From Planctomycetes bacterium syqfu (lineage in GTDB: Bacteria; Planctomycetota; Phycisphaerae; Phycisphaerales; Phycisphaeraceae): a DNA stretch of 64,000 nt. Shown here piece after piece: positions 2,877 through 38,523 of this stretch. Where the stretch lies: contig CP087563.1 of the NCBI GenBank assembly GCA_020974905.1, positions 5,890,001 to 5,954,000 on the forward strand, written 5' to 3'. Below the pieces are notes generated by a model. That model was not told the DNA's origin. It ran no database searches and saw nothing but the letters and a program-made list of their open reading frames with translations. The translations under genes were made by a program, and so were the position numbers. The number at the start of each line of letters is the position of its first letter. Positions within the stretch are counted from its first letter, which is position 1.

Positions 2877-4133
2877 ATGAGTCTTTGGTATCCCTACGCA
2901 CAAATGAAAACCATGTCACCGCCGTTGGAAGTCGCTTCGGCGTCCGGCGCGGTCTTGACGTTGGCTGATGGTCGTCAGTTAATTGATGCCATCAGCAGTT
3001 GGTGGTGTGTCATTCATGGCTATAACCACCCGGTGATCAATGCTGCCATCACCGAGCAGATGTCGCAGATGAGTCATGTCATGCTCGGTGGTCTGACGCA
3101 TGAGCCTGCCCGCAAACTCGCGGATAAACTCGTGGCCATTTCACCTGAGGGGCTTAACCATGTTTTTTTTGGTGACAGTGGCAGTGTCGGCGTGGAGATC
3201 GCTTTAAAAATGGCGATCCAGTATCACAAGAATCAAGGCGCCCTCGGCAGTCATGCCAAGACACAGATCATTGCCTTGAAAAAAGCGTATCACGGGGACA
3301 CCATCGGAGCGATGTCCGTCTGTGATCCGGTGGAGGGGATGCATTCGCTGTTCTCCGGCTTACTGCCTCAACAAATTTTCGTACCATCACCGATGGGTGG
3401 ATTTGATTCCACAGCAGAGGACACACAAGATAATCTCATGCTGCTGGCTGACACGTTAAATAAGTGTGCCAGAACCACTGCAGCTTTCATTGTCGAGCCG
3501 TTGATGCAGGCAGCAGGGGGATTCAACTTCTATTCGCCGGACTATCTGCGTGAAGCGCGAAAGCTTTGTGATGCACACAATGTCTTGATGATCTTTGACG
3601 AAGTGGCGACCGGCTTCGGGCGCACCGGCAGTCTCTTTGCAGCAGACCAAACCGGCATCACGCCCGACATCATGGTGCTAGGCAAAGGACTGACCGCCGG
3701 TTACTCGGGGCATTCGGCAACGCTGGCAACGGATCGCGTCTATGGAGCCTTTCTCAGTGATGATCCTGCCAAGAGTTTCATGCACGGGCCGACTTTCATG
3801 GGCAATCCCATGGCATGCAAAATCGCATTGACCAGTATCGAACTTTTCGAAGCTGAGAACCGGTTGGCGCGTATCGGCCAAATCGAATCCATTCTCAAAA
3901 AACGCATTCGTTCCATCACCGGTCAAGCCGTCAAAGACACACGCGTCCTGGGCGCAACCGGCGTGGTCGAAGCCAAAGACAAGGCATCGCTCCAAGGCAT
4001 TCAGGACTTTGCAGCAGATCGTGGCGTCTGGTTGCGTCCATTTGAGACCTATGCCTACACCATGCCCCCATACGTCATCTCCGACGAACAACTGCACAAA
4101 ATCTGTGATGTCCTCGAAGCCTGGTTTGCTTGA
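2877..4133 (+). CDS. bioA: Adenosylmethionine-8-amino-7-oxononanoate aminotransferase
   Basis: BioA is a fold-type I PLP aminotransferase that converts 8-amino-7-oxononanoate to 7,8-diaminononanoate using SAM as amino donor, the penultimate part of biotin synthesis. Family hallmarks are present: LWYPYAQM at the N-terminus, SWWCVIHGYNHP (40-51), YHGDTIGAMSVCDP (138-151), the PLP-binding Asp241 in FDEVATGFGRTG, and the Schiff-base Lys270 in MVLGKGLTAGY. At 418 aa the length is typical. The gene stands alone; no other bio gene is adjacent. The start has no obvious Shine-Dalgarno sequence but matches the family N-terminus exactly. Confidence 0.96.
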   Translation: MSLWYPYAQMKTMSPPLEVASASGAVLTLADGRQLIDAISSWWCVIHGYNHPVINAAITEQMSQMSHVMLGGLTHEPARKLADKLVAISPEGLNHVFFGDSGSVGVEIALKMAIQYHKNQGALGSHAKTQIIALKKAYHGDTIGAMSVCDPVEGMHSLFSGLLPQQIFVPSPMGGFDSTAEDTQDNLMLLADTLNKCARTTAAFIVEPLMQAAGGFNFYSPDYLREARKLCDAHNVLMIFDEVATGFGRTGSLFAADQTGITPDIMVLGKGLTAGYSGHSATLATDRVYGAFLSDDPAKSFMHGPTFMGNPMACKIALTSIELFEAENRLARIGQIESILKKRIRSITGQAVKDTRVLGATGVVEAKDKASLQGIQDFAADRGVWLRPFETYAYTMPPYVISDEQLHKICDVLEAWFA

Positions 4134-34264: not shown

Positions 34265-35347
34265 TCATCCATCAATCTTCGGCGGGAACCACCCGCGCTC
34301 CACCGCATCGCGGAAACTCCAGTGCGGGCGGTCGATGACTTTGTAGCTCCAGAAATACCAACCGTCGGCTTGCTCGAAGGCAGCAAGCTGTGTGCTGGCG
34401 TAGGCACGCATCATTTGGTCGTACATCGACGTCGGCCAGGTCTCAAGCACATCGTGCAATTCCTTTGGCCATGACAGGGACCATTCACCAATCACAAATG
34501 AACCTTGCTGTGCCCATTTGCCCAGTTGTTCTCCGCGACGCGATGCAGCATAGATGTACGTGAATGGATCGCGATTCTCCCAGCCACAGAAACTCTGATA
34601 CAAATGCACATCGGTCATCACATTTTGGATGTGCGGCACGCAGCCATGATAGGTCGGCATGAGGTTCTCAGGATACGCAGCTATCACCGCTGCCACCTTC
34701 TCCGCGGGCATGTGTTTACGCACACGCTCAATCGACTCCTCGTAAAACTTGATGAGCACCTTGGAGTCGATACTCTCATGTGGTTCATTAACCACAGAGA
34801 AGCCGTTGATGCAGGATTTGTCTTTGTAACGTTGAGCAAACTGTTCGATGAGATCCAACGATCTGGCGTAGCAGTTGGCATCCTTGGGCCACGCAAAGTG
34901 ACCACCGCGACCGGTGTGATGTTCAGGACCTTGGCAGCCGGGCAAGCCGTGCAGGTCAAGCAGGAGTTTCATGCCGTACTGCTCGCACCAATCCACTGCC
35001 TGATCCATGATGTCGATCGACTCGACGTAGGGACCATCAGCATCAAGTATCCAATACCCAAAGGGCAGACGCACCGCATTGATCCCCCAATTCGCTAGCC
35101 ATTTAAAGTCTTCCTCGGTGATCCAGCTTTCCCGATGCGCCCGCATAATGCCTTGCGCCTTATCGCCTAACGCTTCACAGAGCGTGTACTCATCCTTCTG
35201 ATCCGGCGATGAATACAACCCTGGACTCATCCATTTCTCCAGCAACAGCCAGTTCCCCAGGTTCACGCCATGCAGCGTCTGCTCATTGGGATAAATGCCA
35301 GATTCTTCGCTTAATGAAAGCTTTAGTTGTTTTTCGTTATCAGTCAC
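34265..35347 (-). CDS. GH5-family beta-glucanase (exo-beta-1,3-glucosidase-like), 360 aa
   Basis: A single TIM-barrel GH5 domain. HGVNLGNWLLLEKWMSP (26-42) is the first strand, typical of the subfamily that includes yeast exo-beta-1,3-glucanases. The acid/base Glu188 is in VVNEPHE and the nucleophile Glu288 in VIGEWSLS. LLDLHGLPGCQG and DVHLYQSF are also conserved. Start is GTG 35347 with GAGG 8 bases upstream. No signal peptide is present, so it probably acts on an imported oligosaccharide. It is monocistronic, convergent with the secreted gene upstream. Confidence 0.92.
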   Translation of the reverse strand: MTDNEKQLKLSLSEESGIYPNEQTLHGVNLGNWLLLEKWMSPGLYSSPDQKDEYTLCEALGDKAQGIMRAHRESWITEEDFKWLANWGINAVRLPFGYWILDADGPYVESIDIMDQAVDWCEQYGMKLLLDLHGLPGCQGPEHHTGRGGHFAWPKDANCYARSLDLIEQFAQRYKDKSCINGFSVVNEPHESIDSKVLIKFYEESIERVRKHMPAEKVAAVIAAYPENLMPTYHGCVPHIQNVMTDVHLYQSFCGWENRDPFTYIYAASRRGEQLGKWAQQGSFVIGEWSLSWPKELHDVLETWPTSMYDQMMRAYASTQLAAFEQADGWYFWSYKVIDRPHWSFRDAVERGWFPPKIDG

Positions 35348-35531
35348 CGTGCAGCCTCGTTTTCTTCAATCATCTCATGGAAAAAGTTAGGAATGGTTGA
35401 CTAAAGATTGTCCTTGGAGTTGTGAGGCAAGTCAAGCAGAAGTGGGGAGGGGGGGGAGCAGCAAATGGAATCTGTTAGTATGCACGTGGCAAAACATCTA
35501 CCTCACACACAAATTCCGGAGGGTTAATATG

Positions 35532-35574
35532 AAAAAGTAGAATGTCCCTTTTTTTCGTCCTGGGGTCTGACCCC
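35532..35574. repeat. Repeat-associated motifs AAGTAGAATGTCCC and GGGGTCTGACCCC
   Basis: The stretch holds AAAAAGTAGAATGTCCC followed by a T-run, then the perfect palindrome GGGGTCTGACCCC (35562-35574). Similar strings are known to me from bacterial genomes near REP/IS200-like transposase genes. Here they sit immediately before an AT-rich orphan gene. Confidence 0.55.
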
Positions 35575-35617
35575 GTTTGGCTGGCTGGACAATATATTCT
35601 GAAAACAGGTCATCATT

Positions 35618-36028
35618 GTGTTTAAGAAAGGTATGTTTAAAAAGATAGTTTGGGGCTTGTTTTTTACTGCTGCCGTATGTCTGTTTTGTGTTCTATTTTT
35701 ATGTAAATCAAAATCCGACATTGATGTTCATCTGCGTGTAAAAAATCAGTCTGTTGAAAACATTGTGCGTTTGGATATTTCATGCGAAGGGCGTATTTTT
35801 CGAGTTGGTTATTTGATTTCTAAAGGCAGTGCAGAATGTCTCTACTTTTCTGACACCATTCCGATTGAATTAAAGATGGTTGGTAAATACGAGAATGGCT
35901 CAAAGCTTGAATATGCTCTAAAAATACCTCAGCGTGACATGATTGATTGCGAAGAGTGTGTCGTTGTCTTGTCCATAGAAGACATGTCAGTTAATGTGGA
36001 TTGTAAACCTGAAGCGAGGGAGGAATGA
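35618..36028 (+). CDS. AT-rich orphan membrane-anchored protein, 136 aa
   Basis: I do not recognise this gene. It has an N-terminal hydrophobic helix (about residues 10-28) then a soluble, mainly beta part with DCEECVVV near the end. Its composition is clearly more AT-rich than its neighbours, and it is bracketed by the GGGGTCTGACCCC motif upstream and GGTGTCAGGAACC repeats downstream. The start may be GTG 35618 or ATG 35633; the ribosome-binding site is weak for both. It could be a recently acquired gene or a degraded one. Confidence 0.6.
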   Translation: MFKKGMFKKIVWGLFFTAAVCLFCVLFLCKSKSDIDVHLRVKNQSVENIVRLDISCEGRIFRVGYLISKGSAECLYFSDTIPIELKMVGKYENGSKLEYALKIPQRDMIDCEECVVVLSIEDMSVNVDCKPEAREE

Positions 36029-36090
36029 CACCTTCTGGATACGGGAAGGGTTTCAAAATGATCGCTTGCTTAGATGTTAAATACCACGGG

Positions 36091-36477
36091 GGCGAATATG
36101 GTGGGGCGAATATGGTGTCAGGAACCTTTTTTTACTCCCGGGGCGAATATGGGGGCGAATATGGTGTCAGGAACCTTTTTTTACTCCCACTCAATACCCC
36201 GGCGCATCAGTTCGGTGGACATTGACTTGCATGCTGTTGAGGGTGACGGGAGTGAATAAGGTGTCAGGAACCATTTTTTTGCTTCCACTCAATACCCCGG
36301 CGCATCCGTTCGGTGAACATTGACCTGCATGCTGTTGAGGGTGACAGGGGAGCCGAACTGGGTGTAGATGGGGGCGAATATGGTGTCAGGAACCATTTTT
36401 TTCAGTTCATTACTAGGATATTTTCAAGAATCGAATTGGACTGTTGAGTGATGTGAGCGATAAATGGTCGACATGCG
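36091..36477. repeat. Repeat array: GGTGTCAGGAACC junctions plus short copies of a gene 3' end
   Basis: The motif GGTGTCAGGAACC followed by a T-run occurs at 36114, 36163, 36260 and 36382, with a fifth at 36824. GGGCGAATATGG is repeated before several of them. Two truncated copies of the transglutaminase 3' end lie between: about 36191-36250 (about 58 bases identical) and 36288-36372 (about 80 bases with a few differences). No coding role is likely for this part. Confidence 0.8.
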
Positions 36478-36815
36478 TTAATACCCCGGCGCATCAGTTC
36501 GGTGGACATTGACCTGCATGCTGTTGAGGGTGACGGGGGAGCCGAACTGGGTGTAGATGGCAACGTCGGCAGCATCACGACCGTAGGCAATGGCAACGCG
36601 ACCACCGTCGAGATTGTTCTGGGTTGGGTCAAACGTGTACCACCGGTTGCCGACATACGCTTCAAACCACGCGTGCATGTCCATGGGCGTTAATGTTTCC
36701 AGATAACCGACTACAAAGCGAGCAGGGATCGACAACGCGCGACAACAGGCGATCCCCAGGTGTGCCATATCGCGACAGACCGCTTGAGACTGCTGATTGA
36801 CTTCGCTGGCAGAGA
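36478..36815 (-). pseudogene. Duplicated 3' half of the transglutaminase gene
   Basis: This segment repeats the last 110 or so codons of the gene at 36919-37716, including the catalytic Cys, His and Asp region, in the same orientation and almost identical. It lacks the 5' half and a credible start. Differences include GTGATG/GTGGTG in the flank and a few silent-type changes around ACGTCGGCAGC/ACGTCGGCTGC. It joins GCGAATATGGTGTCAGG at 36816, exactly where the next copy's flank begins, consistent with a tandem duplication of about 441 bases. Confidence 0.85.
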
Positions 36816-36918
36816 GCGAATATGGTGTCAGGAACCATTTTTTCAGTTCATTACTAGGATATTTTCAAGAATCGAATTGGACTGTTGAGTGGTGTGAGCG
36901 ATAAATGGTCGACATGCG

Positions 36919-37716
36919 TTAATACCCCGGCGCATCAGTTCGGTGGACATTGACTTGCATGCTGTTGAGGGTGACGGGGGAGCCGAACTGGGTGTAGATG
37001 GCAACGTCGGCTGCATCTCGGCCATAGGCAATGGCAACGCGACCACCGTCGAGATTGTTCTGGGTTGGGTCAAACGTGTACCACCGGTTGCCGACATACG
37101 CTTCAAACCACGCGTGCATGTCCATGGGCGTTAATGTTTCCAGATAACCGACTACAAAGCGAGCAGGGATCGACAACGCGCGACAACAGGCGATCCCCAG
37201 GTGTGCCATATCGCGACAGACCGCTTGAGACTGCTGATTGACTTCGCTGGCAGAGATGATGTCCCCGCCGGTGCCCGGTGCGTATTGAATGTTCTGACGG
37301 ATGTAATTGACGATGACCTGACATTGATCATAACCGGCATAGCAGCCCGAAGTGATCTCCGGTGCCATCTGCGCAAAGCGATCCGATTCGCAATACCGGC
37401 TGGGTAGCAAAAAGGGGAGCGTGCCATCGGGCAGTTGCTGGACTTCGACAAACGGAGCGCCTGGTGCGGTGTCCGCTGCGTCGGCTGCCTGGACATCCAC
37501 AGCGGTGTTGATGTTGAAGGGGCCTGCGGGGGCAACAAGACGTTGGCAGAGATTGCCGAACGGGTCAGTGTATTCGACTGCCTGGATGTTGGGCTTAAAG
37601 ACGTATTGTTCCCTGCCAACCCATTGCTGATGACCACTTCGCGGTCGGAGCATCAGGGTAAAGGGGGTGTCCACGGGAATCTGAAATGAGAGATCACAAG
37701 TGCAATGCAGCCACAT
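36919..37716 (-). CDS. Transglutaminase-like cysteine protease family protein, 265 aa
   Basis: The C-terminal half is a transglutaminase core: catalytic Cys167 in [13 protein letters not shown], His201 in [11 protein letters not shown], Asp216 in TFDPTQNN. The N-terminal half (1-110) is a beta-sandwich-like segment, the usual partner in bacterial transglutaminase-like proteins. AGGAGCC precedes the ATG. No signal peptide is present. The catalytic triad is complete, so the gene is probably functional. Family members act as proteases or cross-linkers; the substrate is unknown. Its 3' end has been copied repeatedly downstream. Confidence 0.9.
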
Positions 37717-37890
37717 ATCGGCTCCTGGTCAGGGTTCATGAGGTTACCTCGATTATCAGGCAGCGATGTGACGATGCAAGTCAGGAGGGGGTTAGGATGT
37801 CAAAGCACACGGATTAATCAGGGATCTTTATGAGATATGATAGTATTGTGTCATGTCGTGTTTGTCCGTTGACTTTGGGGGGGCTGGTAA

Positions 37891-38523
37891 ATGTTTCAAG
37901 TTTCATGGTTGAGTCGATTGAAGTTGCTAGTTTTGGTGTTGCTGCTCTGTTCGTTGATGTCCTGTGAAAAACAGGACAAACCACGGGCAATTGGATATGC
38001 ACCGGCGCAAGGTTACCTCGAAAAACAGATCGCGTTTGAAGGCAAGCAGCATCTCATCCAATATCGCAGGATTGAATTTGAAACGATCAAACCCGATTTC
38101 TCATGGCAACCGACCGCACATGCGTCTGCCGCGTCTGCCTGTTTGCAATTCATTGCCATGGTGATGCAGCATCCCAATCCTGCGATCGAGCAATACCTGG
38201 CATCTTTTCATCCGGACTATCTCGACGAGGAAAAGCTTAAGGCCAATCTCAAAGAGTGGGAGATGGCGAGTTTTGATCAATATATAGACTATCTCAAGTC
38301 ATTTCATGAGGGGACAAAATTACTTGGCGAGATGGTCCACGAGGAGGTTCATGTTGTAGTCATGTCGGTTCCCTCCGGTGAAGAAGGGCGAGAGCCAATC
38401 GTATTCGGTATGCCGGTTATCAAATTGGAGCAGGACTACCTGCTGGCTCCCGGCGCGAAGGTAAGCCGTCCATTTCTTCAGCATTGCTCAAGAAAGAAAT
38501 ACGCTTTCATGTTTGAGGATTGA
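37891..38523 (+). CDS. Lipoprotein, 210 aa
   Basis: A type II signal peptide with lipobox LMSC (Cys near residue 25) is followed by a soluble domain of unknown function. The segment from 60 to 130 contains ASACLQFIAMVMQHPNPAIEQYLASFHPDYLDEE, a helical pattern. ATG 37891 lies after a G-rich run that could serve as ribosome-binding site. Divergently placed from the transglutaminase gene, with a 174-base spacer. No homologue is recognised. Confidence 0.75.
   Translation: MFQVSWLSRLKLLVLVLLLCSLMSCEKQDKPRAIGYAPAQGYLEKQIAFEGKQHLIQYRRIEFETIKPDFSWQPTAHASAASACLQFIAMVMQHPNPAIEQYLASFHPDYLDEEKLKANLKEWEMASFDQYIDYLKSFHEGTKLLGEMVHEEVHVVVMSVPSGEEGREPIVFGMPVIKLEQDYLLAPGAKVSRPFLQHCSRKKYAFMFED

Follow-up and report, generated by a model that had tools for sequence, protein, structure and literature searches.

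One-sided serial duplications at the terminal inverted repeats of RAYT transposases and their possible origin by nicking, extension and rejoining

The motif GGTGTCAGGAACC, repeated beside a transglutaminase-like gene, is identified by its sequence context as the terminal inverted repeat (TIR) of a RAYT (TIRYT-like) HUH tyrosine transposase, and the array in which it recurs is, with little doubt, a RAYT-TIR array with one-sided serial duplication. For the statement as a whole, in which serial duplication anchored on the RAYT TIR would be made by a nick-extend-rejoin reaction, we regard the case as evenly poised.

The array beside the transglutaminase gene

The window, that is, the whole stretch of 64,000 nucleotides that was analysed (C1:5890001-5954000), belongs to a genome of 7.38 Mb in a single contig. 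All five copies of GGTGTCAGGAACC that the earlier note had listed are present as exact matches on the + strand, against 0.09 expected from shuffles (≤1 mismatch). Self-repeats in this region comprise one whose two copies lie 441 nt apart (98% identity across 300 nt) and one of 81 nt with four members. The 3' end of the transglutaminase gene is present in three partial copies of one orientation (Table 1), as in that note's reading of serial gene-end copies, which had missed two short truncated units (units 1 and 3). The units are headed by GGGCGAATAT, in places diverged, and begin ~8–11 nt 5' of the motif and not precisely at it, as had been supposed for the longest copy. Their ends vary; three of the units end inside transglutaminase sequence, each at a different depth, and the intact gene stands last in the series.

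Table 1. Units of the array and the adjoining gene, in window positions
Feature	Position	Strand	Remarks
Unit 1	36088..36103	+	cut off after GGTG
Unit 2	36104..36140	+	full motif 36114-36126; stops in ACTCCCG (~36140), end ambiguous by G run
Unit 3	36141..36152	+	cut off after GG
Unit 4	36153..36250	+	motif 36163-36175; gene-end copy 36193-36244 (52/52 bases matching the gene); end ~36250
Unit 5	36251..36371	+	motif 36260-36272; gene-end copy 36291-36371 (77/81)
Unit 6	36372..36815	+	motif 36382-36394; leader; gene-end copy 36481-36815 (330/335)
Unit 7, head	36816..36918	+	motif 36824-36836 and leader; adjoins intact gene
Transglutaminase-like gene	36919..37716	-	intact, 265 aa, open; PF01841 and PF08379 profile matches

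The transglutaminase gene, which scores 78.8 bits with PF01841 (Transglut_core; cut-off 23) and 29.3 bits with PF08379 (cut-off 27), is a bystander of the duplication, and its reading frame stays open. A relative, G049, encodes a transglutaminase protein that is 95% identical and has one gene end, with the motif absent at the matching place. Units 4 and 5 keep a ACTCAATACC junction that is also present in G049; unit 6 and the gene carry another leader. The junction being common to both units and to G049, units 4 and 5 appear to be older. The latest unit is likely to be the longest one, adjoining the gene. Divergence from the gene does not follow a simple age order: unit 4 has no differences in 52 bases, whereas unit 5 has 4 in 81. 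A search of four genus genomes yielded no source outside the array for the non-coding leader beside the gene. The reading of G049 as a clean empty site for the window was rejected, as the neighbouring intergenic DNA differs there.

The same intergenic region holds two other RAYT-type repeats, GAAAAAGTAGAATGTCCC and GGGGTCTGACCCC (35530-35575). The former is the reverse complement of the TIR of another RAYT locus (L219), and in G049 it is followed by a CCTTTTCTTTTT array (L189, ~3030-3110). A neighbouring gene (34265-35347) encodes a glycosyl hydrolase of family 5 (PF00150); for the 136-aa open reading frame at 35618-36028, Pfam yielded no match at E 0.001, and Rfam returned nothing at gathering scores for 34500-38500.

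The motif as a RAYT terminal inverted repeat

The genome contains nine exact copies of GGTGTCAGGAACC, four of them outside the window, and the best of six PF01797 matches in the genome coincides with three of these four. It corresponds to a RAYT gene of 234 aa, 2.1 Mb from the window, which lies between two inward-pointing inverted copies of the motif. The protein scores 51.5 bits with PF01797 (cut-off 23) and carries the HUH motif NHWH and the catalytic-tyrosine motif YVERNP; NCBIfam REP_Tyr_transpos is matched over the whole profile at 59 bits, below the cut-off of 80. Among 116 loci fetched by the motif plus TTTT alone, 15 have a strong RAYT match, and in 14 of these the motif lies beside it; by their names, the records of such loci come from Planctomycetota groups, NC10, Nitrospirae, Deltaproteobacteria, Thiotrichales, NPL-UPA2 and Doudnabacteria. 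The 33 motif sites that lie no farther than 150 nt from a RAYT match are all oriented towards it. Since RAYT genes sit between inward-pointing copies, this group of RAYT-type HUH transposases has the motif as its TIR. The unrecognised mobile module that the earlier note had envisaged behind the array is thus indeed a mobile module, albeit of a kind already published (RAYT/REP/TIRYT).

Of the 51 family genomes, 14 contain the motif, this one included (0–9 copies per genome), and 37 have some RAYT match at E 0.001. A longer form, AAAGGTGTCAGGAACCTT, is found in 9 of 392 phylum-wide genomes; when two mismatches are allowed, the motif does not outnumber its reversed control in the genome. The TIR consensus folds as a hairpin with the loop GTCAGGA (-6.2 kcal/mol, z -2.8), and the copies in the window fold weakly (-2.3 kcal/mol); covariation in the stem is weak, and was rejected as proof of a hairpin. 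Inverted motif pairs tens of bases apart, resembling REPIN doublets, occur at seven loci (L044, L072, L103, L108, L148, L162 and L176). In one case a single motif lies within coding sequence and reads in frame (KKVSGTF; L016 1556-1590, C1:3898068); its interpretation as a simple insertion was rejected, the homologue in sister genome G048 (L239) being equally long, with bases replaced rather than added.

Duplication at motif sites across genomes

Each distinct motif site was scanned for an exact tandem duplication of period 7–60 running into the motif from 5', with a mirror scan on the 3' side. Truncated tandem copies were found at 27 of 205 sites on the 5' (outer) side and at 2 on the 3' (inner) side, one whole-motif duplication (L186) being counted in both lists; a partly different set of sites gave identical totals of 27 outer and 2 inner. 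Random positions away from motifs scored 72 and 86 of 31439 (0.2–0.3%), and AAAGG positions 1 and 2 of 900. The nominal p-values (1e-36 against the control, 1.6e-6 for outer against inner) are optimistic, because sites from the same genome are non-independent. The bias is seen both in the family subset, fetched without a flank constraint (10 outer and 0 inner, n=46), and in the subset from genome contigs (17 and 2, n=164). A replicate on phylum-wide genomes and three viral contigs, with the direction fixed beforehand, gave 3 outer and 0 inner (n=27), or 2 and 0 after removal of two re-sampled sites, a small sample (n=25). The same pattern recurs in other assemblies, including one complete genome (CP050848.1, L140).

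The arrays are associated with the transposase: they occur at 10 of 33 RAYT-adjacent sites and at 17 of 172 elsewhere (p=0.004). The asymmetry also extends beyond GGTGTCAGGAACC. Motif-independent TIR detection at 57 loci with RAYT homologues returned a TIR in 42 and none in 9, with 6 dropped; of the 84 TIR ends, 19 have a truncated duplication on the outer side and 1 on the inner. In the 27 loci where the TIR was called as something other than GGTGTCAGGAACC, 11 of 54 ends are duplicated on the outer side against 1 on the inner (p=0.006), on automatic calls that are partly wrong (for example at L213, where the motif is nearby and another TIR was called). Several TIRs with outer arrays, such as GGGGACATTCTAC, GGGGACGCAGC and GGGACAGGTC, are not clear palindromes, which argues against pure hairpin slippage and favours the transposase or its TIR as cause. 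In the fetched loci, GGGGTCAGACCCC and ten further palindromic patterns have 0–9 sites each and no arrays, in samples that are small. At L129 and L286, eight units of 16 bp (GTCAAAAAAGGTGTCA) form a regular array that runs into the TIR of a RAYT.

The joints between units were examined at base level, 35 of 40 exact joints being kept and long periodic runs left out. The start (P) lies 9–12 nt outside the motif in ~27 of 35, when ambiguous joints are spread evenly, and in 8 of the 13 unambiguous joints, the remainder starting at 6–8 nt. The copying from a fixed junction that the earlier note had surmised is thus borne out, the junction being nearly fixed. The flank at P differs among loci, with weak G enrichment alone and no conserved sequence visible; the start therefore seems to be set by distance rather than by sequence. 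In the unambiguous joints, the end (E) follows motif base 4 eight times, base 7 three times and base 2 twice, which corresponds to preferred ends at GG, GGTG and GGTGTCA(G), and E occasionally lies far downstream. Microhomology at the 35 joints is 0 in 13, 1 in 13, 2 in 6, 3 in 2 and 4 in 1 (mean 1.0), where ~0.7 would be expected by chance under equal base frequencies, a figure from arithmetic and not a null derived from data.

Captured gene pieces next to the motif, whose absence elsewhere would by the earlier note's own terms have refuted its reading, were found at two further places. In G048, the 3' end of priA (PriA_C) is copied twice behind the motif, in a unit of 137 bp that starts 10 nt outside it; identity to the end of the intact gene is 94.6% over 92 bp in one copy and 91.2% over 171 bp in the other, and, used as a query, this stretch matched priA once in each of G000, G049 and G050. 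At the RAYT locus of the window's own genome, a 259-bp stretch that is 92% identical to the neighbouring RHS-repeat gene lies between two motifs of the same orientation, stopping 11 nt short of the second. G048 has arrays at L055, L063, L245 and L248, and no RAYT match was found in it at E 0.001; the arrays therefore either outlast the enzyme or do not need it. L063 was rejected as a simple insertion, as the matching spot holds a one-mismatch motif in G049 and a GGGGTCAGACCCC repeat in G000. An unrelated repeat of ~30–60 bp (query L063:1183-1242) has dozens of copies in G048 and a few in each other genus genome.

Possible mechanisms and known systems

Among the processes suggested in the earlier note, a rolling-circle-like (HUH) reaction is the best candidate, since a transposase of the RAYT/HUH type has the motif as its TIR. 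None of the observations favours the reverse-transcription-like process also suggested there. We propose that the RAYT would nick one strand at P, outside its TIR, that the 3'-OH at the nick would be extended to E by strand displacement, and that the new 3' end would be joined to the 5'-phosphotyrosine at P, giving [P..E][P..]. Repeated rounds would build an array, and with a far E, adjacent gene sequence would be copied. Such a product matches the observed structure and polarity. According to PMC8266576, cleavage by HUH enzymes yields a 3'-OH and a 5'-phosphotyrosine, of which the former can serve as a primer for synthesis or attack the latter; that paper counts either course among the possible routes of REP spread. 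The anatomy of the arrays (TIR, outer side, near-fixed P and variable E) is shown by the sequences and their joints, whereas the reaction is what we infer from them, and RAYT nicking as the maker of the arrays is put forward tentatively, at slightly less than even confidence. The ends inside the TIR are a weak point, for which nick-extend-rejoin offers no ready explanation; the lack of a sequence rule at P and the G048 arrays count against it as well, and the RAYT cut sites given in PMC8266576 (between C and T or between C and A) could not be related to P in our joints.

Replication slippage is a commonplace source of small repeats and would require the transposase merely to have placed the TIR, which, often a hairpin, would stall the polymerase so that the growing strand slips backwards and copying is repeated. 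The fold of the consensus, the many ends located in the hairpin loop and the G048 arrays without a RAYT match all suit this explanation; we nonetheless consider it unlikely, given the enrichment of arrays beside RAYT genes, their occurrence at TIRs that lack a clear palindrome, the weak folding of the window copies with little covariation in the stem, and the scant microhomology at the joints. Still less probable is a route without primed synthesis, in which the RAYT would cut both P and E and strand exchange between sister copies, or recombination of a short circle, would follow. The far-downstream ends, in the window units and at priA in G048, lie at unrelated sequences and are better accommodated by variable extension, even though the recurrent GG, GGTG and GGTGTCA(G) ends could be cut sites, and even though REPs are known to be cut and rejoined by TnpA-REP and Nunvar et al. 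have proposed rolling-circle formation of BIMEs (PMC6006769, PMC2817692). Unequal crossing-over was rejected, as it alone fails to explain a fixed start with variable ends. An assembly artefact or chance is very improbable: the copies differ by substitutions, they lie in one contig, the pattern recurs in many assemblies, and control rates are far lower.

If nicking, extension and rejoining did produce the arrays, the joint signature of near-fixed start, preferred ends and one-sidedness would be a sequence record of possible enzyme action, from which specific RAYT cut sites become testable in vitro. More tentatively still, TIRYT-type RAYTs may perform a widespread, undescribed form of DNA copying, in which a nick placed at a constant distance beyond the transposon end is followed by limited strand-displacement synthesis and rejoining. 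One-sided serial duplications of host DNA would be written in this way, and neighbouring gene ends could be duplicated in many phyla. Some of the small tandem duplications and captured gene fragments that bacterial genomes contain could then stem from it, and the spread of REP and TIR families is described as poorly understood (PMC8266576).

The kind of element is known, namely a RAYT-associated TIR; searches of open-licence papers gave us no description of its one-sided duplication pattern and no account of one-sided serial truncation. TIRYTs/TIRtrons, as presented by Di Nocera 2013 (PMC3733652), consist of an HUH/Y1 transposase gene between TIRs, some of which recur in the genome as single copies, dimers or groups; they correspond largely to subclass 2.1 of Quentin 2018 (PMC6006769), which is reported there without REPs. 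The present element shares the transposase gene flanked by TIRs, and its GGTGTCAG agrees with the GGGGWSAS consensus at 7 of 8 positions; among the TIRs of relatives, GGGGTCAG (L310, L316) fits exactly and GGGGACGC does not. The YVERNP motif conforms to the class 2 signature Y---NP given in PMC6006769, and the likeness to subclass 2.1 consists in the length of the protein and its Y motif. Outer serial truncated copies and captured host gene ends, which we did not find described in PMC3733652 and PMC6006769, set it apart.

Canonical REPs usually exceed 100 copies per genome, against nine exact copies here, and their conserved tetranucleotide GT[AG]G at the 5' foot of the hairpin does not emerge from base frequencies on the 5' side of the A-run. 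With the REPIN clusters of Bertels and Rainey 2011 (PMC3116915), the present arrays have in common tandem units in which flanking sequence is included; the units described there are whole REPINs or REPs, whereas those reported here are serially truncated ends. BIMEs, as treated in Nunvar 2010 (PMC2817692), likewise have repeated units anchored on RAYT-associated repeats, and in four cases the rayt 3' end has been taken into the repeated segment, for which a rolling-circle model was given. By contrast with their regularly spaced REPs of alternating orientation, the five copies in the window are all on the + strand, the units are direct and variably truncated, and the captured pieces come from other host genes.
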